Source: Saccoglossus kowalevskii
Taxonomy: Eukaryota; Hemichordata; Enteropneusta; Harrimaniidae
Assembly (NCBI RefSeq): GCF_000003605.2
Contig: NW_003147780.1
Location: 28,874 to 54,565, forward strand
Length of the DNA: 25,692 bases
Direction: 5' to 3'
Shown here: positions 4,501 through 24,055 of the stretch, one piece after another
Layout: every line of letters starts with the position of its first letter
Numbering within the stretch: the first letter of the stretch is position 1
Notes under the pieces: generated by a model
The model's database searches: none
What the model was told of the DNA's origin: nothing
What the model saw: the letters and a program-made list of their open reading frames with translations, nothing else
Program-made: the position numbers and the translations under genes

Positions 4501-5840
4501 ACTCATTCTGCAGAAGAGTTCATGGAATGTATTAAATGTGTAATTACCACGACTGTATTAGAGATAACAGACCTATATAATAGAATAAAACGTAACTTTG
4601 ACATAATATAATAATTCTTAAAATTAGATTTATAACTGTTTTACGTTAACCTTTTAATATGCAGGGCGTATATTATATACTAAATATTGTGGAAGATGAC
4701 TGAAAACGATTTTGACATGGGTGACTCAGGTCAGGCACAACATACTAAATATCATATCTACCAAGTTTGACCGTTTACTCCTGGGTGTGAGAATTTACAT
4801 GAATATTATTCATCCCTGTTTTCCAATAACATAAGTAATTTATCTAAGTTTGCTTTCTGGTGATCTGTATGTGAATGCTGCATTACCCACTATATTATAC
4901 AGACGTCACGTGACAATTACGCAACATATTTTCTGAATTCGTTTTCAGAAACAATAAACTCAATAAACAGATTTACCCGGTACTGAACACTCAGTAAATC
5001 GCCCTTGAAATAAATAATGCATTATTATCGTGCCACATGGCAGTCATTATAGATATGTACCATATGTACCTTTTCTAATTCGCCGTCTTTTATTTCACTA
5101 AACAATGAATTATCTTATCTTGGATAGCTGCTAAAAACATGCTTATCATACGTCAGGGGTCATGTAAGCTCAATAAACTGACCCCCAATTCCAGTGAGTT
5201 ATGACTGTTTGCAGCCATTGCACAGAATACATATATGCCATAAGCTATTATACCAATATATTGATTCTTTATATACACACGTTTATTGTGTTAAGCCTAA
5301 TCACAGTTAATCCACACGTGTGAGAGCTTGATGAAATAAATAACATAACATGGTTCAATATGCAGAGTGCTGACTAATTTCACTTGTCAAAACATCACTG
5401 ATGACAAGTTTATGTCTCTCATTCATGGGATTCCGAGATAGAAATTTCAAACAGTACAAACAGCATCGTCACTGCGGTTACACATAGTGTAATCCCATGA
5501 AAATGTCAGTTTTTTCATGTTTAAACAGATTTGAGAAGCAATTTCAAAGTATTCGCAATATATAATTTTGTGCTATATTTTCAATCGATATTATTTGGTT
5601 TGATCAGATTTGGTTCGGTGAGAATCTATGTTGGTATGCGTATTGGCAAATATACATCATATTGTTCGAGTAGATCGAATGATATGTTAATAAGTGTACT
5701 ATGTGTCTTAGAATAAACGTGGTCATTGATATTGTCATTTTTGTCACTGACACTGAAAAATATTCAGATATTCTAAATCAAACCTGGTCATACTTGATTT
5801 AATTTAATGACATTACGTATTAATAAATTGGAATATATTG
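4501..5840. other. Non-coding stretch upstream of the Mab-21-like gene
   Basis: Presumably intron or promoter DNA of the gene that follows. It holds small hairpins, for example TTTCTGAA/TTCAGAAA near 4934-4955 and an 11-bp inverted pair at 5422-5432 and 5491-5501, plus recurring CTCAATAAAC words. No coding exon or first exon could be identified. Confidence 0.4.
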
Positions 5841-5848
5841 TTTTACAG
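5841..5848 (+). promoter_or_regulatory. Candidate 3' splice acceptor before the Mab-21-like CDS
   Basis: TTTTACAG at 5841-5848 follows a T-rich tract and sits 18 bases before the ATG at 5867. It fits a 5' UTR intron with the entire coding region in the next exon. The upstream non-coding exon was not found. Confidence 0.6.
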
Positions 5849-5866
5849 GTACACTGATCGCAAAAC

Positions 5867-7891
5867 ATGGAAAGTAATAAAATGGACAAAATTAATGACC
5901 TACTACTTATGTGGGATGAAAGCTGTGTTAGCAGAATGCTTGGACTACAACTCAGTGATCATTCATCAGCGCATATTGGTCCAGAGGGCATAATGCTACA
6001 TGTACTTATTGAATACTTTACTTCTTATGTACTCTCAGAAGCTTCTAAAAGCGATGACAGATTTGCTGTCCAGGATATGGCGCGTCACGGAAACATGTAT
6101 GAAGGTGTGTGTGTTGATAAACCCTGTGAATTTCAATATTTAGTCACTTTCAAGAAACTGAACCCGGAAGTATGCTTCTTTGAAGATGTTAGTCTTGATC
6201 AGTCTGGTGCAAATAGTGTTAGAATCACTGATAAAAATGTTCTGAAGGAATGGTCTGATGTTGTAATTCCTGGTGGTTTTCTCCACGCCCAACATCTGTT
6301 GAATCAGTTTGCATCTTGTGTCAAGAAATTTGCCAAGGATTTATCACGGGCCAGTCTATATCCTTGTCAAATGACAGGATTGCTGCCGCAGAATGATTTG
6401 CCCTGCATAACTGAGTGCACTCAAAAAGAGGGGCATGTCGAATTGAATGTTACATTTCCGTGTCTTGGGAAACTTTCCACCAACATGAAGTCTGTCACAA
6501 TATGTATTATCCCATCTATCAAATTTCCCGGATGGCCGTCTTCCACAAACATTCCTGAACGTATTCCTTTGTCAAATCCTTTACACAACACTTTCATGGA
6601 TGAATCTTCAAATGGGTTTTATGTAACTCCACCGCTCAGCCTCCACCATCAAACTACGGATGGCTGCTTTTGGCATGTATCAACAAATTTGGTCTCTACA
6701 CACGTGATTACCCGCTCTTCTGTCCCTCTTGCTGGCTATTCATGCCTTAGAATGATCTTGATATTACTTGGCAGGTGTGAATCTATGAAATCTGACCATA
6801 TGCTGCAACATATTTCTAACCAAATTATGTCTTCATCTGTTAGCATGAGCATGTTAAAAACAGCCCTACTGTTAGAAATTGAACAAAATCCAGACCAAGC
6901 AAGATGGAGTGCTAACGAGCTAATCAAAAGAGTACTGAGTGTCATTAACAAACTTGAGATAGCATGTCAATGTTCTTCATTAAATGATTACTACTTCCCA
7001 GGTTTGTCCCATCTTCCACAATCAGACTCAAAACGATTAGTACAGAAAGAAAGCTGCAGATCTGTTGACATTCAAGATCTGTTCACAGATGAACTTATCA
7101 ACGATTCTGAGACACTCAATCATGTTGCTGATCGCCATTGTATGATGGATGATGTTCGATATGATGAAGATGCATTACAATTTATTGAATGCCCCTCTGT
7201 AAATAACTTTCCGAGTAACTCAAAGATGGAGCATAAATGGAAGCTTCTTGCAGAATCAACCATTTTTGCCCATCATATTTATGAGTTACAACCCCGGGAG
7301 AACATTATCATATATGCACTAGAGTTACCCAAAGATAGCCTTGCATACACTCTAATTATGCTGTGTGAACTATTTCGTCAGTATCAATTGAATGACCCAA
7401 ATCCGTCAGAAACTCTCCAGAAAGTGATACAGGAAGTAAAATGCAATGAAAATAATGTATCTCCCCAAGATATTGACCTCATTTTCAACACTGCCGCAAT
7501 TGCTGGACATCAAAATGCTATAGTTGTACAACCATCCACTGATCACATACTATATACTAATCAAGGCTTAGGTGAGACAAATATAGACAGGGCAATAGGG
7601 TCAGCTATGGATGTACATACAGTACATGGTGATGGTTGCTGTAACAGTTGTTATAACAATGGATGTGCAGACGAGGATGGATGTTGCCAGTTCTCCAGCT
7701 GTCCATGTTTTCCTTGTTGTGATAAATACAGTGATAGGTGTTGTTCATGTGAAGATGGCGGTTGCTGCTCCTGTGGAGATGACGGATGTTGTTCCTGTGG
7801 AGATGATGGATGTTGTTCCTGTGGAGATGATGGGTGTTTTGATGTTGGTGACAGAGATTATGACTGCGATTGTGATTGCGTCATAATGTAA
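5867..7891 (+). CDS. Mab-21/cGAS-like pseudo-nucleotidyltransferase with cysteine-rich CaaX tail
   Basis: A 674-residue, intronless coding exon. The start ATG has a strong context (A at -3, G at +4). Residues about 60-385 match a Mab-21/cGAS fold. GNMYEG (75-80) lies at the nucleotidyltransferase Gly-Ser loop. CEFQ (87-90) lies where active members have E-F-D. ICIIPSIKFPGWP (212-224) lies at the third-acid strand. WHVST (269 on), KTALLLEIEQNP (331-342), W347 and DYYFP (374-378) match the helical C-lobe. Two of the three catalytic acids appear lost (Q90, C213), so enzyme activity is unlikely (inference by eye). No cGAS zinc thumb is visible. Residues about 450-530 look helical. The tail (591-674) has 26 Cys in 84 residues, including four CCSC-type 8-residue repeats, and ends C671-V-I-M, a farnesylation-type CaaX box identical to that of K-Ras4B. 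It is probably membrane-anchored. Mab-21/cGAS-like receptors are expanded in molluscs; the native role of this one is unknown. Confidence 0.87.
   Translation: MESNKMDKINDLLLMWDESCVSRMLGLQLSDHSSAHIGPEGIMLHVLIEYFTSYVLSEASKSDDRFAVQDMARHGNMYEGVCVDKPCEFQYLVTFKKLNPEVCFFEDVSLDQSGANSVRITDKNVLKEWSDVVIPGGFLHAQHLLNQFASCVKKFAKDLSRASLYPCQMTGLLPQNDLPCITECTQKEGHVELNVTFPCLGKLSTNMKSVTICIIPSIKFPGWPSSTNIPERIPLSNPLHNTFMDESSNGFYVTPPLSLHHQTTDGCFWHVSTNLVSTHVITRSSVPLAGYSCLRMILILLGRCESMKSDHMLQHISNQIMSSSVSMSMLKTALLLEIEQNPDQARWSANELIKRVLSVINKLEIACQCSSLNDYYFPGLSHLPQSDSKRLVQKESCRSVDIQDLFTDELINDSETLNHVADRHCMMDDVRYDEDALQFIECPSVNNFPSNSKMEHKWKLLAESTIFAHHIYELQPRENIIIYALELPKDSLAYTLIMLCELFRQYQLNDPNPSETLQKVIQEVKCNENNVSPQDIDLIFNTAAIAGHQNAIVVQPSTDHILYTNQGLGETNIDRAIGSAMDVHTVHGDGCCNSCYNNGCADEDGCCQFSSCPCFPCCDKYSDRCCSCEDGGCCSCGDDGCCSCGDDGCCSCGDDGCFDVGDRDYDCDCDCVIM
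7739..7834 (+). repeat. 24-bp coding tandem repeat (4 units) in the cysteine-rich tail
   Basis: Four in-frame 24-bp units encode CCSC followed by an acidic/Gly tetrad (EDGG once, GDDG three times), residues 625-656. The last three units are nearly identical in DNA (TGTTGTTCCTGTGGAGATGA), which points to recent slippage or unequal exchange. Tail length may vary between individuals. Confidence 0.9.
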
Positions 7892-7954
7892 TAACTTTCA
7901 TAAGACGATTATGTTTTTTGCTGACATATGTTTATTTGTTTATCTTCAACAAGA

Positions 7955-8140
7955 TTCTCATGGAAGTTTAAAGACAGGCTGCCCTTGACACGGGGACTAA
8001 CCTATTATATTTCACTAGAAATCAAGTCCAGTTTCCATGGAAACAACTATATTATTTATAACTCGAAACATTAAAAATGGATTCTCGTGAAGTTGTAAGG
8101 ACCATGGAACAGCCATTTAATTTGTAAGCCAAACTGGTAT
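7955..8140 (+). repeat. Diverged duplicate of the adjacent LINE segment
   Basis: Three landmarks recur about 190 bp later. GATTCTCATGG (about 7953) resembles GATTCCCATG (about 8147). CTTGACACGGGGACTAA (about 7984) resembles CTTTGACCCAGGGACTAA (8175). TTTCCATGGAAACAACTA (about 8032) resembles TTTGCATGGAAACAGCTA (about 8227). This is an old tandem duplication of part of the LINE, starting about 60 bases after the Mab-21-like stop codon. An ATTAAA at 8070-8075 could be that gene's poly(A) signal. Confidence 0.45.
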
Positions 8141-8204
8141 AAATAGATTCCCATGAAATGTTCAGCATGGATTACTTTGACCCAGGGACTAAGCAATTAC
8201 ATTT

Positions 8205-9225
8205 ATGTTCAGATGTAGGGCATACTTTGCATGGAAACAGCTAATATTGGGAATACTTTTATTACTCAAAACGTTGTTGATGGATTTGCATGAATTGACA
8301 AAAGAAATTACCTTTGACACAGGAACCCATGGATTAGTTTTTGGCAATAACATAAATCAGGCGATTATATTGCATACGAGATCTACAGTGAGTTTCTTTT
8401 TGAAGGATTCTTCACCATTGGATGATGACTCAATTTGGTCTTATGAAGCTAATGTCAATATGATAAATGATTTTGTAATAAGAATAGTCGAGGGTTGCTC
8501 GTCTGATTTTTTCCCTGTCAATTCAAGTGTTTTCCAGTGATTCGTCTTGGGGCCATCCTTGTTTCTTCTATAAATGACTCAAAAAACAGTAAAATGGCAC
8601 TATTTGCCGAAGACACCAAATTATACAGACGTATACAAAACAAAAACATGACCTAGATGCTTTATATAATTGAAATGCTGAAATGGGATATGGAATTTAA
8701 TGACAAGTAATGTAAAAGAAGTATTAATTATAAGAAAAGATTCCCAATGTAATTCAGCTAGACTATGAATGATGTAATTTTTAAATAGTGTCAAATATTC
8801 GATACTTACCTTTCTGCCAAGGTTAAAAATGCGAATCCAGAACGTTTGATAATCACATTGTTATGTCGACCATAACATTTTATATATTAGTCTTGCATGG
8901 TCGTCTGTGGAATATGGCAGTATTGTTTGTTCCCTTGGAACCAAACAAAACTTAGATCTGTACGAATCAGTTCTGAGGCGTGCCACAATGACTATGAAAT
9001 GAGTTACAGGGAACAACTGAAAATGTGTGACTTGTTACCTTCATCTTTACGTGAAGATATGATTGAAGTTACATTTTTTGGATAAACGTTTGACAAATTA
9101 ACTGATCTAAATATTCATGAGTTTTTCATTTTTTATGATACAGTTTATGGGATGTCAACAAGGGCTAGTTATGATACCACCTTAATCAAGAACAAAAAAA
9201 CAAATTATTTATATTTAGATGTTTT
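8205..9225 (+). mobile_element. Decayed CR1/Jockey-like LINE reverse transcriptase fragment
   Basis: Read across frameshifts, this is a non-LTR reverse transcriptase. HELTKEI (about 8290-8310) matches the finger region. VEGCSSDFFPVNSSVFQ, ending at the stop at 8540, matches the segment before motif B. FVLGPSLFLL follows directly, and a frameshift leads to INDSKNSKMALFAEDTKLY. The catalytic FADD-type motif is FAED (8603-8614), so the first Asp is changed. EMLKWDMEFN follows after another shift, then YREQLKMCDLLPSSL in the frame at 8897-9085, typical of the C-terminal part. Several stops and shifts make it inactive. It is 5' truncated. Confidence 0.75.
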
Positions 9226-11065
9226 TGTTTGTTTGTTTTATTGTTCAAATTGTTGAATCTGCTAGTTTACGCTCATTTAAGTCGACCGGAAGTGCACTTT
9301 ATTTGCTGCATTACATTTCACGCCACACATTTATATCTATTAATACGTATATGCTAGTATACATTTCGAGACACAATTTACCCAATTATTATAATGTAAA
9401 ACACTATCGTTTACTCCGTTTGTGAAAAGATGACATGTATTTAATAAAAGCCTAACTCAAAGAATTGTATACAAACAGTTGCATGCATTATTAAAGCAGG
9501 CGTTACAATGCAATGATTTGAATTACTTCAACTTTTCAATGCCAATAAAACATGCATGTATACATGACATACATGACATTCATATCATCTTCTGATCAGC
9601 AAAGCAAATATTATATGTCTCTTCTTTTTTCTTTATACCAATTACTATAGTGATTCTAGTGGCTCGAAGTCACATGGCAAAGGCACCAAATTTTTCATGC
9701 GGCGAGATCTGCTCACCAACCTTCCTTAACTAGCGTGGGCACTGCTTTCATTGCCATTGACGTCATCAATTTTCATCAGCGATTTCCTGTTGACTACGAA
9801 ATCTCGTGTAATGCGCAAAAGGAGCGTCCCGAACATGTCATCGGAAAATACTTGTTGGTAAATTATATCGCAATTCAAATGCAAATGTCTGACTTATAAC
9901 TGTTCTCATCACTTGCGTTTCAATAGGGAGATCATTTGTTTTAATATAACCCATGAAGCAATTGTATCTCACCAAAATAGCACATGTTACTTATTTGTAT
10001 TTGATATAGGTAGAATGCCACGTGTAGGCACATCCTTCTACCTTACACACACAGTTTATAAGGCTCATGGGTAGACGCTTGTTTGTAAACAATGACACAC
10101 TTTGGCCATCTGACGCATGCGTAGGTGACGACTCTCCCGCTTTAATGTTTAAAAATGTGAATAAATGAAGAGGGTTATGATCAGAGTTACCTATGTGGAG
10201 CCGTAAGGAACTCTTACACCTTTAAAACATCTATTACAAATGGTTATTACAAGAGATTGTTATATAGAGCAGTTCATATGCAATGGACACATTCAAATAA
10301 ATAATATATAAGCAATGTACGCATGTAAAATCAATCAAACATTAAACAATCAAAATGTAATCAATATAAATAATGGTAAGTTCTCAGTAGATAATATTTT
10401 AATCATAAATAGTTATAGGGGGCTCCACACACACACACACACACACTGTCACGTGCTTTTCAGTCTTTTCTACACCATTGTGATTCTCTGTCCCATTTAT
10501 ACACAGGTGGCGACGCAGTTAACATGGTCGTACTTTCATCTTATGTTGAGACTTCCCAACATTAACTTACACAAAATTGTAGTCCTGAATGCTTTCACAG
10601 TCGCACAAACACGCACCTTCCCCAGAGTTCGGTTTAACATGAAACAAAAATGTCAAATGGTAGATCAGCCACGCGTATCATCACATTCTAGTTTATATAG
10701 CGATGAGCCTTTTCTTTACGACATGTAGGCCAGTTGTTGTTCCAATCCACCAATCGGCAGCCTCCGTACAGAGTTTCAGTTTAACCAGGTCGTGTGCTAT
10801 ATGCACCCGCTCGTAGGTACCATCCAATCAGTAGACACACCTATTTATTCAGTCGCATACAGGTTCAATGAGAATATCCAAATGGGTGTTCACCAATACA
10901 ATTCCCCATACATACTGTATTATTACGTTGTTCGCGTCCTTTCAGCATCGGCAAGGAAGAGTGCCATACGTGTGTCAAATGTACTATCAGAGAGATTCGC
11001 TCATTTAAGCTATGTACTTTCTTGTTGTTAATACCTATACTTTTTTCGCGAGAAAATTGAAGTGA
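9226..11065. other. Non-coding stretch
   Basis: No recognised gene. Contents include a full CRE-like octamer TGACGTCA at 9758-9765 and a (CA)n microsatellite at about 10424-10447. Two open frames (10315-10728 and 10792-11031) have AT-biased, low-complexity translations without a family signature. Confidence 0.45.
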
Positions 11066-11198
11066 TTAAAGCGCAGTGATCGTCGCGCAGCCTGTGTTAG
11101 AATTTCATGTAAACAAACAATGTATTTTACACGCGTTGTGTACGTCGCTATGAGTCCTATATCGAACAGGACGCAGTGCGACGATCACTGCCTTTTAA
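11066..11198. mobile_element. 133-bp TTAA-flanked MITE
   Basis: TTAA at 11066-11069, three bases, then GCAGTGATCGTCGC (11073-11086). At the other end the exact reverse complement GCGACGATCACTGC (11178-11191), three bases, then TTAA (11195-11198). The equal spacing at both ends and the TTAA on each side fit a miniature inverted-repeat element of a TTAA-targeting DNA transposon (piggyBac or Kolobok type). There is no internal coding capacity. Confidence 0.7.
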
Positions 11199-11789
11199 AT
11201 ACTAGTATAAAAAAATAGGTCCAACAATGAATGTGTCGTTGTATGTTAGAGCGCCCTCAATACATGCCACAAGACAATTTGATCACTTTATACTTCTAAA
11301 GCTATATATTTATTTTATTTTTGTAAATCATTATTTGAGGATATTGTATACAATTTGTATTTAGCTAATTTCCTTCATTCTGTATATTTTCTGTATAGTG
11401 CCATGCATATTATTATTACTGCTCTTAATTGATTTGCATAATATGAAGACATTGTGAGTAAGATCACTGAACACTTTAAATAAAATTTCTGTTATTTCGG
11501 TGTTCACATAAGCTGATCTATATTCTATTGTTGCTATAGTGACACGGTAGTGTTATGACTTGCATATTTTGAAATTTTAGTGGTCAATTGTATGTTTGAA
11601 AGTTGTATTTAAAACATCTTTAGTAAGTATTTAGTAGCTGAACTCTTGAATCTGTAATAGTTAATACGTACCTTTTTGGATTTGGTATTTCCTTTAATAG
11701 TGTAGGAGTTATTTTCTTGCTACATTGTACATGTCTTTAGGCTATTATATATTACTGTGTTGACTCTATTTACATTACAGTAGTAGTTT
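11199..11789. other. Non-coding stretch
   Basis: AT-rich, no gene recognised. It may partly be retrotransposon 3' sequence leading into the tail signal that follows. Confidence 0.35.
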
Positions 11790-11860
11790 CATCTCTTCTT
11801 TGTATTTTTTATTACACGGCACCCCTGGTAGAAAATTGTTATGTCCAGGGCAACAATAAA
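11790..11860 (+). mobile_element. Possible LINE 3' tail with hairpin and AATAAA
   Basis: A T-rich run is followed by GGCACCCCTGG, a 16-base loop and CCAGGG (stem CCCTGG 11823-11828 with CCAGGG 11845-11850), then AATAAA at 11855-11860. This layout resembles the 3' ends of CR1/Jockey-like LINEs, but it could equally be the 3' end of an unidentified host transcript. Confidence 0.3.
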
Positions 11861-14479
11861 CAGTTGACACAATATTGCAATTTGTTCAAGTTGTTTATTT
11901 TACGTGTCTGTATGTTTGGAATGGTGTATACGTATATAATAATATGTGATGATGAAAGACCTGATACCATTGCATTAGTGAAATTCGTGTGTTTGGATAT
12001 CAGAGGTAACTTGATACATAACGATTCGGAAGCAAATATTTCACTTAAAAGAAGGGAAAATGGCGTCTTTTTCCATGATTACAGATTAAAATGAAAATAA
12101 AGTGGCATACACTAGCGCTAATGAGGGCTAAAATGATTACATGGATTTATGCCATGTTACTGCACAATACGTCTGATAAATAAATAATAACATGTGTATC
12201 AGGACAATGTCATGGTTTGTTGCCTGGTCAGGAGACAGTTGCTACGACTATAATATTCATGACGTCAGAGCCGAAAGCGAGGCTATTATTAACATTCCGA
12301 TTTTATTTAATATGGAGGAAGTATTACATGGTTTTATGTCACTTATAGATTTGTCAATTCTTTGTTTGCATGTACTAGTCCACGTCATAACCAAGTTACG
12401 GCATATGACCACGGAAATTCCAGCACGCCCATTGGTCAATTCATGACAGACGCAGTAGAACCTGAATTTGCCTGCAAACCATTACATCATATTCATCAGG
12501 CAGCATATTGTAAAGTCTGACCCCATATTTCATATCTAATTACTGGTTGGAAAACTTACTATATGAACAAAAATTATTACAGACATTCACTAGTTAGTTA
12601 CACCTAGCTTTATTTCGTCCAAACGAAATCGCGCACGGTAAGTTCATTTTGAATTGCGTCAATACGACCCAAGTGTTCGATCATAGGGGTATCAGGTGCT
12701 AACACTCGAATGCATTTCAAAAACAAGCCTATCGTTATGAGCATAGCGTATATACTATTTAGAGACATCTTTCATTAAATATTAATTATTAAAATGACAA
12801 AGACGCCTAAATAATAGAAAACACAGATTATGACAATTACAGATTAGTCTGTATTATGTATCACATATGTAGGTCATCGTCTTCACCATGACAAATGACT
12901 CACGTAAATTAATAGTGTTATATATTGTTATATATAGCCATAACAGCTAAACTTTCAAAACATTGTCTGGAGAACTTGACATCACCAAATTAACTTGTTC
13001 CAGATACGACACAAGACGCTAAAACAACCCAATTACCCTAGAATTGACATTAAGAAAAGCGAGTAGAAATAAGCAGTCACTGTATACAATCACTTAAGAA
13101 ACTTATTTAATCTAATTAAAATCAGGCAAAAATACAGGATTGATTTGAAAGATACACAACAACGCAGCACTTTATATTAATGTATAATGTGACTTGACTA
13201 AAAATTATAATCAGTATAATTACGTGTACTTGCCTGCATGCATGGCTTGGAAATCGTGTGTAAGCTAGCTCAGCTAGTGAAATTAAATTATTGGGAAAAA
13301 CAAACACATCTCTACGAAGGAGGCTGGCCGCCATGTTTTGATAAACACTTTAGTTGCCAAAATATACCAATCCACCCAGACCCACGACAAAGTAAACAAT
13401 AATAAAATAACCAGTCAATCCTCACAGTATATCCAGCCATTATACATCAAACCAATACCCTGAGATACACTTAGAGATTATCAGAGGGGAAATATTTTGA
13501 AAGACATCTACATAATCCCTGTAAACAATTGGCGTGACTGGCGGAACAACAGCATAGACACTGACAATAGATAGAGGGCAGCACAAACACACACACACAA
13601 AGCTGACATCATCATTGTAAACACTAATATATGCATTGAGCTACGGGGTGTGGTTGAATTGCGTTGATTGACGTTACAATATACAATAGATAAGAAGTCA
13701 CGTTCATTTGTCATCGTGTGATTGTACTTGAAACGTTCATTCTCAGTTAAAGTCACGTGCATGTGATGACTAGCAACCAAACTGTATTTTCACTTCAGTT
13801 AGTGCAGATATACCAGCAAACATGGAGTGTAATGTCTAATAGTTCACACGTGTGATACTGCACGTCACCGTAGTACGTATGTATAGTATTAGCGTATTTT
13901 ATTTTACTTCTGTCAGAATAACAAACCCTCAGTTAAGCGTCACACCACGGTCCCTCTATCCCCGGTCTGGAAACGACTAGCGTTCTTTCGTCTCGAACCG
14001 CGTTGTGGGTAAAAAAAAAAAACGTTCACACACGGGCCGAGGGAGTCAGGAAGTCAGACAGATTACAATACCGTCAGGATATTCATTAAAATCGACAAAT
14101 TTACCGTCATGAAAGGCGATACCTCATTGTATGACTTTAAATTCGGGCAACTGCAACGTAAACAAAACATGTAAACAAAATTAGCACTATGACATTTAGG
14201 GTTTTTGAACCCTGATACGCATCAAACAGAGGGACTGTGGTCATACGAATCAACCCCGGGGAACTCACGCAGACGCCGGACACGCTCTTGTTTGTATATT
14301 ATTGTCTGTATTACCTGCATTCATTTAGTTTATGGTGTTTTACTAGCTTCGTAATTATATGCATGTAGTTAAGACTCACTACAAGAGCCACGAACACACC
14401 CACTGCTTATAATGGTAGCATTACATTGAAATCAAAAGATGTAATGAACAAAGGCAATGCGCACTGTCGATGCTACCTC
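11861..14479. other. Non-coding stretch
   Basis: No gene recognised. It includes a second TGACGTCA (12260-12267), a short CA tract at about 13586-13600, and many TA-rich segments. The small open frames (for example 11864-12094, 12192-12446 and 13508-13780 minus) lack any family signal or splice-site support. Confidence 0.45.
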
Positions 14480-14526
14480 GTTCCACCCATGGAGCTAAAT
14501 CTTATTTTAGCTCCATGTTCCACCCA
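14480..14526. repeat. Palindrome flanked by 10-bp direct repeats
   Basis: GTTCCACCCA occurs at 14480-14489 and again at 14517-14526. Between them lies a palindrome with arms CATGGAGCTAAA (14488-14499, overlapping the left repeat by two bases) and TTTAGCTCCATG (14506-14517) around a 6-base loop. The arrangement looks like a tiny inverted-repeat insertion or excision footprint with a target-site duplication. It sits 19 bases outside the large TTAA element. Confidence 0.65.
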
Positions 14527-14545
14527 ACCTTCTAACTAGGTCGTG

Positions 14546-14768
14546 TTAAAGGGGAGCAGAGGTGTGGCTTTTGACACTCTGAACATGAAATTTGAGATCT
14601 ATGAAAGAATTCTGTCGATAAAAACAACTTATATGTGCTGCGAAATGCCCTAAATATCGGGTATAAAACGGGCTGTGAAGCAGACGACAAACGCCCGCTT
14701 TGCCTGGCGTCATTTCGCCTCTAGAGGGCCAGTCAGATGATGTCATCAGTGAACACTGGTCATTGAAC
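14546..14768 (+). repeat. Left terminal inverted repeat, 223 bp
   Basis: Reverse complement of 16958-17180 with about 97% identity. The minus strand is open for 66 codons, and the right arm encodes nearly the same peptide on the plus strand. This follows from the arms being copies and is not evidence for a gene. Confidence 0.9.
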
Positions 14769-15038
14769 GATGGAACTATAAACCCTATCCTGTGACTCTT
14801 CGGTGAACATGCACCCGTTAGTTAGCTTCATCTTTTCTATGAATGTCGAGTAGTAAAATTATTTTGGGATACATTCTTTGAGATATGGGGGACAAAACTG
14901 AGTTTCCCTCGGGTAAACTACCCAGAATGCTTCTTGTTTGGTGATAGTCTTCTCCCCCTTCTGTTAAACTTTTTGCTTTTGGTAGCCAGGAGGTTTATTT
15001 ATATTTGCAGATGTCAGGGTAACAAACCCAAATTTTAG

Positions 15039-15161
15039 GAATTTAAAGACTTCGTGCAGAGGGTACAGAAAACTGAGTACTTGATTGCAAACAGAAAAGG
15101 TAAATTGGGAAAACATTTAAAAAAATGGGGAAAATTTATGAAAATTGTAGCAACGACCTAG
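15039..15161 (+). other. Short open segment, possibly the end of a LINE ORF
   Basis: A 40-codon segment (FKDFVQRVQKTEYLIANRKG early, then KWGKFMKIV, stop at 15159-15161) begins right after TTTTAG, which is either a stop codon or a splice acceptor. The composition looks coding-like. It could be the last residues of a plus-strand retrotransposon ORF or chance. No family is assigned. Confidence 0.2.
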
Positions 15162-15247
15162 CATATCAACATGAATTCCTGAAAAAATTGTTAAATTTTT
15201 GTGGAGACTTTGTACTTGTTTGTTGTGCAATGTAATTTGTTGGTACA

Positions 15248-15297
15248 NNNNNNNNNNNNNNNNNNNNNNNNNNNNNNNNNNNNNNNNNNNNNNNNNN
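15248..15297. other. Assembly gap (50 N)
   Basis: Exactly 50 unresolved bases lie inside the LINE reverse transcriptase region, at the place where the motif-B/catalytic segment should start. The true gap length is unknown, because 50 may be a placeholder. Confidence 0.98.
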
Positions 15298-16030
15298 ACG
15301 TTGCGTGTGACAGTGCCTTTGTTCATAACACAACTGGAGATGTCAGAGTAAAATACTTTTATCCATTTTATAAAACTTGGGCCAAAATTATAAGTCTCCA
15401 ATGCTCTAAAGAGGAAAGGCAACTCCACAGTATCAAAAGCTTTTTCAAAGTCTACTGTTAGTAACAAACCAGGGATGTCCTCCTCGTCCATGTACTCCAT
15501 TACACAGTCAACCAATCTCACATCTCCTATAAATCTATTTTTGACAAAAGCCGATTGGGTTATATGTATTAACTGTGGAAGGATTTTTTCTAATCTTTTA
15601 GCTATACATTTTGTACCAATCTTATAATCTGAATTGAGGAGTGATATAGGCTGCCAATTTTGGATCTTGCTATTATCCCTTCCTTTTTTCTCCAGCAATA
15701 TTATTACAGCTTGTCGTTGAGATGTGGATAGCCTGCCTTTCTCAATGGTATTTATATGACTGGCTTACCAGAAAATAGGCTAGTCTACTTTGGATCAATA
15801 CAGGATTAAAGCGTTTGCATGTAAAGCTACTTTTCTCCGGATGTATGATTCTCCATACATCTACCTGATCAACCGCCTCCAAAAAGCCATGAAACATTTC
15901 CGAAACACGAACCCATTTCTGGGGGTTACCACCTTTCCTATCTTTAACCATGTCCAATACAATGTTGTGATCGCCCCCCACACATTTTGGATATCATGGG
16001 TCTGACATGCTCCCCCTGATCTCACTGAGT
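15298..16030 (-). mobile_element. L1/Tx1-like LINE fragment: endonuclease end fused to reverse transcriptase start
   Basis: On the minus strand, about 16000-15745 encodes the C-terminal part of an APE-type endonuclease: GGDHNIVLD, DRKGGNP, QVDVWRIIHP and QSRLAYFLVSQ (normally SRLDYF, so the Asp is changed). From about 15740 down it encodes the reverse transcriptase N-terminal region: KGRLSTSQRQAV, NWQPISLLNSDYKI, QSAFVKNRF and LTVDFEKAFD (motif A, about 15430-15455), then WIKVFYSD, ending at the gap. The stretch normally linking endonuclease to reverse transcriptase is missing, so there is an internal deletion near 15740. No catalytic YADD/FADD motif remains. It is a dead copy inside the TTAA element. 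Confidence 0.8.
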
Positions 16031-16957
16031 AAATTCTTCAGAAAATTTATGTACCACAGTACTCATTTTGCCCAACTTCCCACTTTTTAAACGATCGCTT
16101 AATTTCCGACCTCACTGTATTTTCCAACCGGAAAACGGCCACATTTTTACCGTTTTTTTCTCTCTCGCTCGCTTATTGAAAACACCGACCGCTCACCAAA
16201 ACACCGACCGCTCACCAAAACACTGGTCATCGGCACAGGAGTAGTCAAAATGTTTGGGGATATGCAACGAGTGTTAACTATTATAAATTCTGAACGGCTC
16301 TTCAAATCTATACCACTCTGTATCGTTCGCGAACAACTTCATCTGTGTCCAATACTAGAGCCGGTACAATATTGTAAACAAATGCCATGATATCTCAGTC
16401 ATATCGCTATTGTATCACTACCTTTTTTATTCTTGGTTTGCACAAACGTTGAATAGCCGTCAAAACATTCAAATATATTTAGTTTTTAACTATCTATAAT
16501 TATATGCATGCAATTTGACACCTTTGACCTAGATTTGATTGGGATGGAATATTTTATTTTAAACAATATTCTGACGTTACTTACTGCCCCAAAAATGTTT
16601 CAACACAATTGCGGTATGACTGTCCTATTTGTACATCGGGTAATATATTAATATTCATTCTCACCAATCGCTAGCTTAGGAGAGAGTAGGAAATCAAACA
16701 GCCGAAGGTCGCCTGCCTTTTATGCATAGATTCAGGTATGTACGACCTAGAAATGAGGGGATGAAATGGATTACAAATCAAATATTAGTAAAAGAAAAAT
16801 TTGTCAGTCGTTTGTATAGAATCGATGTTTGCTCTTCACGAAATTGCACAGGAAACGTGAAAGCACAATAATTTAATAAACGGTTTCAACCTTTATGTTG
16901 TCAGTTAACAAGGTCTTTCATAGCATTTCTATGGGATTGACGTACTAGCATGAATGG
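16031..16957. other. Interior of the TTAA element, no gene seen
   Basis: Non-coding DNA between the LINE fragment and the right arm. It contains a 19-bp tandem repeat listed separately. Confidence 0.4.
16180..16227. repeat. 19-bp tandem repeat, 2 copies plus part
   Basis: The unit AAAACACCGACCGCTCACC occurs twice in a row, followed by a partial copy that breaks off at AAAACACTGG. Confidence 0.85.
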
Positions 16958-17180
16958 GTTCAATTATCAGTGTTCACTGATGACATCATCTGACTGGCCC
17001 TCTAGAGGCGAAATGACGCCAGGCAAAGCGAGCGTTTGTCGTCTGCTTCACAGCCCGTTTTATACCCGATATTTAGGGCATTTCGCAGCACATATAAGTT
17101 GTTTTTATCGACAGAATTCATTCATAGATCTTAAATTTCATGTCCAGAGTGTCAAAAGCCACACCTCTGCTCCCCTTTAA
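16958..17180 (-). repeat. Right terminal inverted repeat, 223 bp
   Basis: Mate of the left arm. Six mismatches were counted by eye, two of them close to the inner end (ACTGATAATT against ACTGGTCATT). The arms stop matching at the same inner point, so this is one paired structure rather than two independent short elements. Confidence 0.9.
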
Positions 17181-17440
17181 CAAAATAACGTGATATACGA
17201 AGACGCGTTGTTTCTTAATTTGTCTACTGGAACTTATTATGTGTGATTGATTTGGCACACGATTTGAAAATACGCTATTGCAGACATCATGCTGTTTTTC
17301 TCCAGACCACTGTACGCCATCATATACGTTGCCGTATGGTTGGAAACTTTGACTTTTTAGTTTAGGAACTTAGTATTGCGTTTTAACCTAATATAAAATG
17401 TAAGACGCATAGTCCAGAATTCCATTGTAACATCCATTGT

Positions 17441-17453
17441 GTTTTGTTTATAG
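17441..17453 (+). promoter_or_regulatory. Candidate 3' splice acceptor before the small CVIM gene
   Basis: GTTTTGTTTATAG at 17441-17453, T-rich and ending in AG, lies 7 bases before the ATG at 17461. The layout mirrors the Mab-21-like gene, with a short untranslated leader after an acceptor. Confidence 0.5.
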
Positions 17454-17460
17454 AATATAC

Positions 17461-17802
17461 ATGGCTCAACAAACTTTCCAGCATCAAAGCGGCCCTGGTA
17501 TTGTATTACAACAACCCCCATGGCAACAACCAAATGTGATACATTTCCAACAACAAAATATCATCTACCCTTCACATGCAAACATTCCACCACCTGGAGA
17601 TAATCAGCGAAGCAGTGGCGTATCCGGTGATAACTGCTGTGATTGCTGTAACGGTAATGATTGTGGAGGGTGCACGTCCCAGGATTGCTGTCCAGACTGT
17701 AAATGCGATTGTTGTGAATGCAACTGCTGTGATTGTGGAGGATGTGATTGTGGCGGCTGTGACTGTGGAGGCTGTGATTGCGGGGGCTGTGTCATCATGT
17801 GA
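17461..17802 (+). CDS. Small cysteine-rich protein with Gln/Pro head and CVIM CaaX box
   Basis: 113 residues. I chose the ATG at 17461 (MAQQTF) because the open frame upstream has no ATG and crosses a likely splice acceptor. Residues 1-58 are hydrophilic and rich in Gln and Pro, without a signal peptide or membrane helix. Residues 59-113 hold 23 Cys in 55 residues, in CC, CxC and CxxC spacing with Asp and Gly, including four in-frame CDCGG units (90-109). The protein ends C110-V-I-M, a farnesylation-type CaaX box. The tail recalls metallothioneins (metal thiolate clusters) and heavily palmitoylated anchors; either reading is inference. The absence of a signal peptide plus the CaaX box predicts a cytosolic, membrane-tethered protein. 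No family was recognised. The tail strongly resembles that of the Mab-21-like protein upstream. It could instead be the last exon of a longer gene. Confidence 0.72.
   Translation: MAQQTFQHQSGPGIVLQQPPWQQPNVIHFQQQNIIYPSHANIPPPGDNQRSSGVSGDNCCDCCNGNDCGGCTSQDCCPDCKCDCCECNCCDCGGCDCGGCDCGGCDCGGCVIM
17728..17787 (+). repeat. 15-bp coding tandem repeat (4 units, CDCGG)
   Basis: Units such as TGTGATTGTGGAGGA repeat four times in frame. The CaaX cysteine codon at 17788 is the first codon of what would be a fifth unit, so the prenylation site grew out of, or merged with, the repeat. Confidence 0.9.
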
Positions 17803-17858: not shown

Positions 17859-18262
17859 GCGATTGTAAATCTCCACACCTGCATTCACATGAAGATTGCA
17901 CATGCCACACCTGCATTCACATGAAGATTGCACATGCCACACCTGCATTCACATGAAGATTGCACATGCCACACCTGCATTCATATGAAGATTGCACATG
18001 CCACACCTGCATTCACATGAAGATTGCACATGCAACACCTGCATTCACATGAAGATTGCACATGCCACACCTGCATTCACATGGAGATTGCACATGCCAC
18101 ACCTACATTCACATGAAGATTGCACATGCCACATCTGCATTCACATGAAGATTGCACATGCCACACCTGCATTCACATGGAGATTTCATGTGCTACACAT
18201 GCATTCACATGAAGATTACACACTCCACATTTGCATTCACATGGAGATTTCACATGTCACGT
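17859..18262. repeat. 32-bp minisatellite, about 12 copies, in the 3' UTR of the small CVIM gene
   Basis: The unit begins GCATTCACATGAAGATTGCA and continues CATGCCACACCT. Starts at 17881, 17913 and 17945 show the exact 32-base period. The last three or four copies are more diverged. It begins about 57 bases after the stop codon and ends before an AATAAA at 18327. Open frames across it are a property of the repeat, not a gene. Confidence 0.92.
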
Positions 18263-19160: not shown

Positions 19161-19336
19161 AAAATGGGTGAGCTTGAAACAAATGGGTGAGTTTGGGACA
19201 AAATTGGTGAGCTTGGGACAAAATGGGTGAGCTTGGGACAGAATGGGTGAGCTTGGGACAAAATGGGTGAGCTTGGGACAAAATGGGTAAGCTTGGGACA
19301 AAATGGGTGAGGTGATCTTGGAACAAAATGGGTGAG
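19161..19336. repeat. 20-bp minisatellite, about 9 copies
   Basis: The consensus AAAATGGGTGAGCTTGGGAC repeats with point changes and one insertion near 19313. Overlapping minus-strand open frames (Pro/Leu/Ser/His-rich, 20-residue periodic) arise because a 20-base unit keeps several frames open. Confidence 0.92.
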
Positions 19337-20536: not shown

Positions 20537-23204
20537 GACATTCATGAAAATAATAATTCGCTACCACATGCAATTGAAAAGACAGAATAATCGTCACCTA
20601 AGCCCTAAATAAGATGGATTTGTTCATACACTGCCCTCAATCAGTATCAGACTTTATAGACAAAAGACAGATGTCACTGTCGCCTGAGGCGGCGCTATTC
20701 AATTTGTCTTGCCAGTTTACTATCTTGCCATCAGAAGTTTAGTATTTGTCGTTGTGGGCAGTGTTCCACAATTTCTAATATTTCTACCTTTTTACTTGTT
20801 GGACAAACTGTTCTATGTTTATACCAATTGTATTTCGGGTGTAAGTCGCTTCCTTGGCCCGGATAACAAATTAAATATACAAACTGTTAAATACAATATA
20901 GTTACGAGGTGATAATAAAGATATACTGTTTTGTGCCAAGGAATTGTTCTTTCCTACCATTCAAAGTGCGTGGCACTATGCCTTGCAATCAATATACCCA
21001 TGATATGTATTTTCCAATTACCGATTGAGAAGAAAAACTGACCGGCCTGGTTTTCATTCTTTTCCAGTCCAGTAGACATCGGATGAACTTTCACAACGTT
21101 TTCGTCGTGTGCTATCAACCTCAGTAATCAGTACAATTGTTTTAATGTGATTTCTCTGTGTGACAACATTTTGACGCTGTCGAGTTGATTAACCTGCCAC
21201 TCATCATGTGAGTACGATGACTGGGAACAAATACTCCACGGTATGCCCTCGTTTCATTTCACCGATGCTCTCATACCATGTCTTCTTTGACGTAGGCGAC
21301 ATTTCACCATACTTTTCGCATTCAGTAAACTATTAGCGCAGAAGACGGGTCAATTTTTTCATAAACATTCCTGTCATTTTTAACTGCGGGGTTGCGTTGT
21401 AGGTCAAATGTCGCGTCATTCTCCCAAGAAATCTATCAAGATTTATCCGCGACATCCTCAGCAAGACGTCACTAAAGTTAACTTGTAACTGTTTCAGTGA
21501 TGAGACCACCATATTTGTTTACTAATTTCCTGTTGCTAAAACGACATTTCTTATAATTAGAATGTTGTATCTCGACCTACCATTTCCTACCACACACCAG
21601 CTAAAATGTCACTAATTTGCAGGACTTCTCACGCGAGTCGCATCGCCACCATCGGAGGTTGTGTTTGCAAACTAACATCCTCTTGTTTAAGTCAACGGAG
21701 CGAAGTTTCAAATTCCAAATCAGAGAGGAAAACGTGACACGAATTCAGCCAACGAGATGCCTAAAACATAGACACTTACACTCGAAGCACTCATGGAAGT
21801 GTCATTTTTGATAAGTATTAAGTAAAATGTGCTTCAGACATGAATTGAGAAAAATCTTCGTAGCATAAACAATAACTACAGATACAGTTTAAGTGATTTA
21901 TTGTATAATTGTTGTCCATTTCACTCTTGAATAGTTTTAGTCATATACAGGGTATCTTTCGACAGAATACGAAATAAATGTAGACACTAACTAAGTAGTA
22001 TACAGTTATTCAGATTCAGAATGTTTGATTAAACGGATTCTAAATTACAGCGCGGGTGTTGTATTTATGTAAACTTCCAATCACAGACAATATGGTGGTC
22101 AGCGACAGATTTCATCAAAATAAATCAAATTAATAATTAAAAAAATTTTCTACATCCCAAGTTTTTCAGCGGAATTGCAAATACACATACAATATATAAA
22201 TACACCAAAAAAAATACACATAGAATAAATTATTCCAATCATATTAAAGAATTACATTTTTCTGTGACGGTTCAAGTTAATCACTCGGCATTCATCTTAT
22301 GCCTGACAGGGAATGCTCTAATCGTTTTTTTTTTATGGAATTTCTAGACATTTTAATCTGATATTTCAAGCATGGGGGGGGGGGCATGGTTATGCAAATT
22401 AGCTATAAACTTTGTGCAACGTCTTGGTAGACGGACGATCAAGGCGAGACACAATTGGTTTATCGTCAAATTCATAGGCTTCCCAGAAAGTCTATAATAT
22501 GTTCACAGAAAACGCAACTTTCTAAAATCACGGGTTTAAGAAATGAGTCGACGCGAACTGAAACCTTTGTTGTTGGTTTGGAAGAGTCATTCTTGATGTG
22601 TCTCTGATTGTATGGCGTAATGACGTAAGCAATGTCACATGATCATAATATAATAAGTGTTCAAGAATATACATTGATATGATCATTCTGATTCTCACTA
22701 CTTTTCTACCCACAGCAACGATGTGAGGCGTTTTTATTAATTTTTCACCCAAATTAATTGTCTTTGTGGAGTTTGTTGTCATAACGTTCATTTAATAATT
22801 TGGTAGAGAAGCTGCCAGATGTGAAGCATGTATTTGGAAATCTTTGTTTTTTCTCGCAAAAACCTGAAATAAATTAATTGATTTTTTCAACTTTATATTC
22901 AGTTACATTCGCCATGTACAACGGGAAAGTTACAAATTACATCGTAATATTGTGCAAGAAACCACGCCAGCCAGTCATTGCCGATTCTTACTGTGATTTA
23001 CTACATCGAATGTTGTTTGAACTGGGTTTACTGAAGCACGTTAAATTTATTGTTTCTTTTTATTTGATGAAAAAATCAAATGGCTGAAGCAGCTACGAAT
23101 TATTGGACTCTATATTCATTGTTGTTTTAGCCTACAAAGAAAAAAAACGGTTCTGAACGAACTCTTGCATGTCACGTCCATGCATTCATCTTTTATATTC
23201 ACCA
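20537..23204. other. Non-coding stretch
   Basis: No gene recognised. Short open frames (20709-20912, 21617-21811, 22528-22791 minus, 22878-23087) have no family signature; the one at 21617 follows a possible acceptor (TTTGCAG). A poly-G run lies at 22375-22383. Confidence 0.45.
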
Positions 23205-24055
23205 CAGTACTCACAATCCAGGCTACGCACAGCTATCCAGACCATCCCATATCTTCATTCCCACTATCCAGTCTACTTCATAACTCCATTCCCACTATCT
23301 TTGTTACCCCATAACTTAATTCCCACTTTCCAGGCAATCCCATAACTTCATTTTTACTATCCAAGCTACTCCAAAACTTGCTTCTCACTATCTTTGTTAC
23401 CCCATAACTTCATTCTCACTATCCAGACTATCCCATTACCTATTCTCACTATCCAGACTATCCCATTACCTATTCTCACTATCCAGGCTAACCCAAAGAT
23501 TCATTCCCAATAGTCCGCGCCACCCCATAACTTCATTCTCACTATCCAGGCCATCCCATAACTTCATTCCCATAATCCACGCCACCCCATAACTTCATTC
23601 TCACTATCCAGGCCATCCCATAACTTCATTCTCATAATCCGCGCTACCCCAGAACTTCATTCTCACTATCCAGGCCATCCCATAACTTCATTCCCATAAT
23701 CCTCGCCACCCCATAACTTCATTCTCACTATCCAGGCCATCCCATAACTTCATTCTCATAATCCGCGCTACCCCAGAACTTCATTCTCACTATCCAGGCC
23801 ATCCCATTACTTCATTCCCATAATCCTCGCCACCCCATAACTTCATTCTCACTATTCGTGCAATCCCATTACTTCATTCCCATAATCCACGCTACCCGAG
23901 AACTTCATTCTCACTATCCAGGCCATCCCATAACTTCATTCCCATAATCCTCGCCAACCCAGAACTTCATTCTCACTATTCAGTATTCACACTATCCTAT
24001 AACTTCATTCCCATAATCCACAATACCCCATACTTTCATTCCAATTATCCATGTT
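23205..24055. repeat. 31-bp minisatellite with 62-bp and 124-bp higher-order structure
   Basis: About 27 units. Two 31-bp variants alternate: one containing CACTATCCAGGCCATCCCAT and one containing CATAATCCNCGCCACCCCAT, giving a 62-bp dimer. A further alternation (ATCCGCGCTACCCCAGAAC at 23637 and 23761; ATCCTCGCC at about 23698 and 23822) gives a 124-bp tetramer in the centre. Outer units are more diverged. Confidence 0.9.

Follow-up and report, generated by a model that had tools for sequence, protein, structure and literature searches.

Cys-rich tails ending in CVIM on two neighboring genes of Saccoglossus kowalevskii: a Mab-21-like protein and a small protein as a candidate membrane-anchored pair

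Background

OAS1 and the cGAS/Mab-21 proteins share the wider nucleotidyltransferase (NTase) fold, and OAS1 p46, which ends in the sequence CTIL, is geranylgeranylated and is not known to have a Cys-rich repeat tail. Among the Ras proteins, KRas4B carries a polybasic stretch in its tail, while H-Ras and N-Ras are S-acylated on Cys just upstream of the C-terminal CaaX box. Here we analyze a stretch of 25,692 nucleotides from the hemichordate Saccoglossus kowalevskii (assembly GCF_000003605.2, contig NW_003147780.1, positions 28,874 to 54,565 of the forward strand), hereafter the window, in which two neighboring genes, one for a Mab-21-like protein and one for a small protein with a Gln/Pro-rich head, both end in a Cys-rich tail that closes with the CaaX sequence CVIM.

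Several published findings bear on this arrangement. CVIM is the CaaX motif of KRas4B; in a yeast system, human farnesyltransferase modifies it completely, and human GGTase-I can modify it as well (PMC11152559). Prenylation of the CaaX box of OAS1 p46 directs this protein to endomembranes and is required for its stronger antiviral activity (PMC8357416). The active site of cGAS-like receptors (cGLRs) has been described by the motifs h[QT]GS and [DE]h[DE]h together with a third acidic residue in h[DE]h (PMC9980059), and shrimp Mab21 proteins are described as binding neither double-stranded DNA nor double-stranded RNA, making no cyclic GMP-AMP (cGAMP) and acting via IKK-epsilon (PMC12928593). In plants, the HIPPs combine metal-binding residues with an isoprenylation site, and have been reported to be confined to vascular plants. 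Among the papers listed by literature searches, none dealt with a prenylated, CaaX-bearing or farnesylated Mab-21 or cGLR protein, and those listed for Cys-rich CaaX proteins of molluscs or bivalves and for Cys-rich tails offered no description of the present proteins.

The reading that we favor, and to which we would give about an even chance of being correct as a whole, is that the two proteins form a membrane-anchored CaaX pair in which the Mab-21-like head is non-enzymatic and the tails are of independent origin.

Results

Two neighboring genes with Cys-rich tails

The window lies inside a 137-kb contig of the 572-Mb genome, and the adjoining stretches that were called up read as N throughout. 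Positions below are those of the window, and the genes and their tails are as follows.

5867-7891 (+): Mab-21-like gene, 674 amino acids in one coding exon, read from the list of open reading frames and the sequence
17461-17802 (+): small Gln/Pro-headed gene, 113 amino acids counted from the ATG, the frame being open from 17431
7628-7888 (+): Cys-rich acidic tail of the Mab-21-like protein, residues 588-674, 26 Cys in 87 residues, ending in CVIM
17626-17799 (+): Cys-rich tail of the small protein, residues 56-113, 23 Cys in 58 residues, ending in CVIM
7739-7838 (+): 24-bp in-frame tandem array in the first tail, CCSCGDDG units of 8 residues
17726-17791 (+): 15-bp in-frame tandem array in the second tail, DCGGC units of 5 residues

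The stop of the Mab-21-like gene and the ATG of the small gene are 9,569 bases apart on the same strand, and in both proteins the C-terminal C-a-a-X is CVIM followed directly by a stop codon. The last 60 residues hold 18 Cys in the Mab-21-like protein and 23 in the small protein. In both tails the Cys are spaced as CC, CxC and CxxC and accompanied by acidic residues, and the Cys nearest to the CaaX box lie at -2 and -4 in the Mab-21-like protein and at -3 and -5 in the small one. A first-pass annotation of the window had reported this arrangement, and the open frames and Cys counts bear it out. Its description of the heads as unrelated also holds: in a comparison within the window neither head matches the other gene, and the small protein, with its Gln/Pro-rich head, has no match in Pfam (up to E-values of 1 and of 10), the PDB or NCBIfam. 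The further statement that the tails are built of tandem codon units is right for each of them, as both contain an in-frame array, though the units differ, with 24 bp in one and 15 bp in the other.

The differences between the repeat units support the view that both arrays are translated and that their residues are under selection, because these differences are mostly at third positions or synonymous. The case is clearer for the small gene, where, over the four units from 17731 on, all four variable columns fall at third codon positions (P 0.004), and the codon differences over unit pairs comprise 14 synonymous and no non-synonymous changes, the pairs not being independent. In the Mab-21-like array, five of seven variable columns are third positions (P 0.02), and all pairs of its four units, again not independent, give 16 synonymous and 6 non-synonymous codon differences.

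Upstream of both start codons the sequence resembles a splice acceptor.

5837-5848 (+): putative 3' splice site ATTGTTTTACAG, a polypyrimidine-AG sequence 18 bases 5' of the Mab-21-like ATG, from reading of the sequence
5855-5857 (+): in-frame TGA between ATTGTTTTACAG and the Mab-21-like ATG
17437-17453 (+): putative 3' splice site TTGTGTTTTGTTTATAG, a polypyrimidine-AG sequence 7 bases 5' of the small-gene ATG, from reading of the sequence

We infer that splicing may occur into both coding exons. The Mab-21-like protein should begin at its ATG, since the in-frame TGA separates this codon from the splice site. No in-frame stop lies between TTGTGTTTTGTTTATAG and the ATG of the small gene, which may therefore have a coding exon further upstream.

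Searches with the single proteins found relatives of either one in the own genome only as the window copies themselves. Candidates found by pattern further afield were rejected: none of 45 matching stretches in bacterial and archaeal genome contigs was confirmed as a relative of the Mab-21-like protein, and none of 13 in viral contigs as a relative of the small protein. A search of the window for remnants of another Mab-21 copy gave, outside the gene, a best E-value of only 0.86, and this match was likewise set aside.

The Mab-21-like head

Residues 321-386 of the larger protein match the Pfam family Mab-21_C (PF20266) with 35.8 bits, above the curated cut-off of 24.1. This is the sole Pfam family found up to an E-value of 1, with no OAS family domain among the matches. 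Distant similarity to Mab-21-like 1 (5eog) and to cGAS-like receptor 1 (8gjy) was detected with phmmer. For the N-terminal half, which would hold the NTase fold, there is no Pfam match, and the phmmer match of residues 53-154 to 5eog is weak (E-value of the stretch 0.03-0.054). The protein thus resembles Mab-21-like 1 and the cGLRs in having Mab-21_C above the cut-off and in its distant phmmer matches, and differs from them in its Cys-rich CaaX tail, in the roughly 200 residues that separate the Mab-21_C match from this tail, and in the region that corresponds to the catalytic motif.

6086-6139 (+): NTase motif region HGNMYEGVCVDKPCEFQY, located by the phmmer alignments and by a MAFFT alignment with 5 paralogues from the genome

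Compared with the published cGLR active-site motifs, the Mab-21-like protein has GN at the place where 8gjy has GS, according to phmmer, and in place of [DE]h[DE]h it reads EFQY, with Gln at the second acidic position, in both the phmmer alignment and the MAFFT alignment with the 5 paralogues. The MAFFT column of the third acidic residue, where the alignment is weak, has Cys in the Mab-21-like protein and Asp in three genomic loci (L042, L044 and L045), so that the third acid may be absent as well. Because the head deviates from the published motif in this way, the protein is probably non-enzymatic.

Mab-21_C occurs in at least 16 other places in the genome. In 13 of them the open frame can be read to its end (L038, L039 and L041 were left out of the count), and in none of these 13 does the frame finish with a CaaX box or hold more than 4 Cys among its final 60 residues, downstream exons not having been sought. 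The locus L034 on contig C263 is by eye a probable Mab-21-like 1/2 orthologue; it reads EFQ where the PDB chain of Mab-21-like 1 reads EFE.

Comparison of the two tails

The first-pass annotation had suggested that a tail module was duplicated and fused to different heads, and had proposed aligning the tails at the DNA level. The alignment does not support the suggestion. The local alignment of the tail DNA scores 25, below the mean of 29.4 (standard deviation 4.8) for codon-shuffled tails, 863 of 1,000 of which score at least as high; without CVIM the figure is 926 of 1,000. At the protein level the score is 128 against 115 ± 12 for shuffled tails (270 of 2,000 at or above the observed value), and 532 of 2,000 shuffles do as well when CVIM is removed. 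Even in the shared CVIM-stop, three of the four codons that can vary differ (Cys, Ile and stop), with the Val codon alone in agreement. The flanks are unlike as well: four comparisons of the 5' flanks and of the 3' flanks (the untranslated regions) found no similarity between the genes, with 109-425 of 500 shuffles reaching the observed score. The part of the tails outside the repeats, taken alone, gives a borderline result (129 of 2,000), for which the segment and gap costs were picked afterwards.

How sensitive such comparisons are was gauged by simulating a common tail in which the repeat array had been swapped. With the non-repeat part kept free of insertions and deletions (indels), the common origin came to light in all 20 pairs at every divergence up to 35%, and at 45% in 18 of the 20. 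A recent duplication of one tail is therefore unlikely, as by this simulation a common non-repeat part should have been detected; it bears on a recent origin, an old one with heavy turnover being beyond its reach. On this comparison, the tails probably arose independently.

With respect to described tails, both window proteins share with KRas4B the identical CVIM (PMC11152559). They are unlike Ras tails in being acidic and far richer in Cys, and in having no polybasic stretch. The plant HIPPs, which join metal-binding residues to an isoprenylation site, are a possible parallel, and differ in having heavy-metal-associated (HMA) domains: no HMA match was found by Pfam in the small protein (up to E-values of 1 and 10), and the Mab-21-like protein matches only Mab-21_C. 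Nor did either window protein match a metallothionein family in Pfam or NCBIfam (up to an E-value of 1), a search in which short Cys-rich proteins are easily missed. The mammalian cysteine-rich tail protein CYSRT1, with its Gln/Pro-bearing head and a Cys-rich C-terminus with a CaaX-like end, may be a further lead.

Rarity of such tails in the genome

The genome was searched for CxxCVIM, CxCVIM and CCVIM followed by stop, that is, with Cys at -3, -2 and -1 relative to the CaaX box, TGG also being accepted in place of the stop codon. The patterns gave 52, 16 and 6 matches, respectively, at 72 distinct places, since two of the CCVIM matches coincide with matches of the other patterns; TGG stands in for the stop in 1 of the 52 and in 2 of the 16. 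We read 55 of the 72 places, both window genes included: all 16 for CxCVIM, all 6 for CCVIM and, for CxxCVIM, 30 loci, 4 further stretches and the window gene. Each of the 17 left unread contains a single recurring word, or that word with one base changed. The two window genes have the only Cys-rich tails among the 55 places; at the places read outside the window, the final 60 residues contain 6 Cys at most. As a rough guide, a second tail placed at random would fall within 10 kb with a probability of about 20 kb/572 Mb, or 3.5e-5, a figure that assumes uniform placement, although the window was picked for the pair and genes cluster; the survey behind it covers these three Cys spacings and the CVIM ending.

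A dispersed repeat present on many contigs (L004-L033) encodes a peptide that ends in HLCTKCVIM-stop. Most of the CxxCVIM-stop places are copies of it, and it inflates any search of this genome for CVIM followed by stop.

A third gene with a tail of this general kind was found on another contig, C172.

L051:1243-1614: third Cys-tailed gene, contig C172, 123-codon open frame, 102 residues when counted from its Met

Its protein has an unrelated, acidic, Gly-rich head and a Gly/Asp-rich tail with 11 Cys that ends in CTIM. The tail aligns with the two window tails no better than shuffled sequences do (862 and 411 of 2,000), and the protein matches no Pfam family; a hit to NfuA in NCBIfam (10.5 bits where the cut-off is 268, E-value 0.43) is not credible. 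Because a similar tail is carried here by yet another head, repeated origin is favored over one module bound to the locus.

Surveys by Cys pattern read open frames, so that matches might still be exons of larger genes. Of the 27 matches of CCxCxxC[DEG]C in the genome, the small gene accounts for 2 and the C172 gene for 1. Among the other 24, 3 were left out because an in-frame stop lies inside the matched word, and none of the 21 examined belongs to an open frame of at least 60 residues with a CaaX end; eight shorter frames (14-50 residues) in which, on a loose criterion, the fourth-last residue is Cys were not counted as genes. C[DEG]CxxC[DEG]C matches 7 times, three times within the small gene and once within the C172 gene; the other 3 matches lie in open frames that lack a canonical CaaX end and run to 23, 60 and 48 codons. 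Units of the Mab-21-like tail gave 6 matches, 4 in the window gene itself and 2 in frames that are not Cys-rich CaaX frames.

Other features of the window

An inverted repeat (14544-14768 and 16958-17182), with arms of 225 bases that are 97% complementary and 2,189 bases apart, lies between the two genes, its second arm ending about 280 bases 5' of the small-gene ATG. Between the arms is a reverse transcriptase fragment (RVT_1, 57.6 bits, 15300-15764 on the minus strand). Directly 3' of the small gene is a 32-bp tandem array of about 12 copies (17873-18260), followed by a 20-bp array of 7.6 copies (19161-19311) and a 31/62-bp array with strong strand bias (23233-24041), the GC skew being -0.60 in 23001-24000. 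Rfam and tRNA scans of the window gave no matches, and nine further open frames gave none in Pfam up to an E-value of 0.01.

Discussion

Judged from their sequences, both proteins are most likely prenylated at membranes, and perhaps also acylated or metal-binding. We read the Mab-21-like protein as membrane-tethered and non-enzymatic because of its CaaX end, its altered active-site motif and the precedents of OAS1 p46 and the shrimp Mab21 proteins. OAS1 p46 resembles it in its C-terminal CaaX box (there CTIL) and probably in placement, and differs in being an active enzyme with a different head. Shrimp LvMab21-1 to -3 are likened to it in mode, as Mab21 proteins with a reported part in antiviral signaling that involves neither dsDNA or dsRNA binding nor cGAMP production (PMC12928593). 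In the mechanism that we propose, the CVIM box would carry both proteins to the cytosolic face of membranes through prenylation of the last Cys, followed by trimming and methylation, while the Cys just upstream might be S-acylated as in H-Ras and N-Ras and the rest of the Cys/Asp/Gly tail might form a metal-binding or multi-acylation patch. The Mab-21-like protein would then act as a non-enzymatic sensor or scaffold tethered to the membrane, and the small protein would be a Cys-rich partner or a metal buffer that is likewise bound to membranes, each tail having presumably grown by tandem codon expansion ahead of its CaaX box. The adjacency of the genes suggests a common function or regulation, and a common membrane or metal environment for the two proteins, as the first-pass annotation had also considered, is plausible.

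Several points weigh against this reading. If the tails are independent, the placing of the only Cys-rich CVIM tails seen within 9.6 kb of each other becomes an improbable accident. The dense acidic Cys tails, so unlike those of Ras proteins, could serve metal binding instead. The N-terminal match to Mab-21 is weak, as the E-values of 0.03-0.054 indicate, and the 6 non-synonymous differences make selection on the Mab-21-like array less clear. In OAS1, moreover, the CaaX box alone was insufficient for full activity (PMC8357416).

In a rival reading, one ancestral tail was copied, through a partial tandem duplication or by shuffling of the last exon, and became attached to two heads; the pair would be a linked unit in which repeat turnover has erased the similarity of order. 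In its favor, the sole Cys-rich CVIM tails in the places read stand 9.6 kb apart on one strand, both tails begin with GD-x-CC and are borderline similar outside the repeats, and splice-site-like sequence precedes both ATGs by 18 or 7 bases. The DNA score below the shuffled mean, the unremarkable protein score, the differing repeat units, CVIM-stop codons and flanks, and a simulation that, with no indels in the non-repeat part, still recovered the common origin of 18 out of 20 pairs at a divergence of 45% all count against it, and we consider it unlikely. The first-pass argument that chance convergence at one locus is improbable still carries some weight, since reading these places turned up no further tail that is both Cys-rich and closed by CVIM. 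A linked membrane-signaling pair, made up of a Mab-21 protein with an altered catalytic site and a small adaptor that have one cellular address in common through Cys-rich prenylated tails, seems to us doubtful, a judgement that jointly covers its companion idea that selection or tail exchange has kept the tails alike despite rapid sequence turnover.

The shared strand and the polypyrimidine-AG sequences before both ATGs, together with the fact that each protein can be read from a single exon, would also suit a single transcription unit in which the two coding exons are alternative last exons, or neighbors in a trans-spliced polycistron, with one leader and promoter for both. Such splice-site-like words are frequent by chance, and the intervening 9.6 kb hold both an inverted repeat and a fragment of a reverse transcriptase, so that this is the explanation in which we place the least belief. 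Only a little more credible is that the tails are mainly metal-binding in the manner of metallothioneins, with CVIM serving only to tether a metal buffer to the membrane, much as in HIPPs, and with the Mab-21 protein regulated by metal or redox state. The CC, CxC and CxxC spacings with acidic residues fit this proposal, as does the precedent of the prenylated metal-binding HIPPs; against it, Pfam gives no metallothionein or HMA match in the small protein or the C172 protein, and only Mab-21_C in the Mab-21 protein.

Conclusions

The Mab-21 family and CaaX proteins are already known, and the chief points of this locus are the adjacency of the two genes and the resemblance to prenylated OAS1. 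Should the CVIM tail be in use, the larger gene would encode a lipid-anchored protein of the Mab-21/cGLR superfamily, parallel to the prenylated OAS1 of human antiviral immunity; were the two genes a linked pair, they would form an invertebrate-type counterpart of prenylated OAS1 built on a Mab-21 head. The membrane-anchored reading, if true, would offer a simple handle on where non-enzymatic Mab-21 proteins act, and would mean that Cys-rich anchor tails can be built repeatedly out of short codon repeats.

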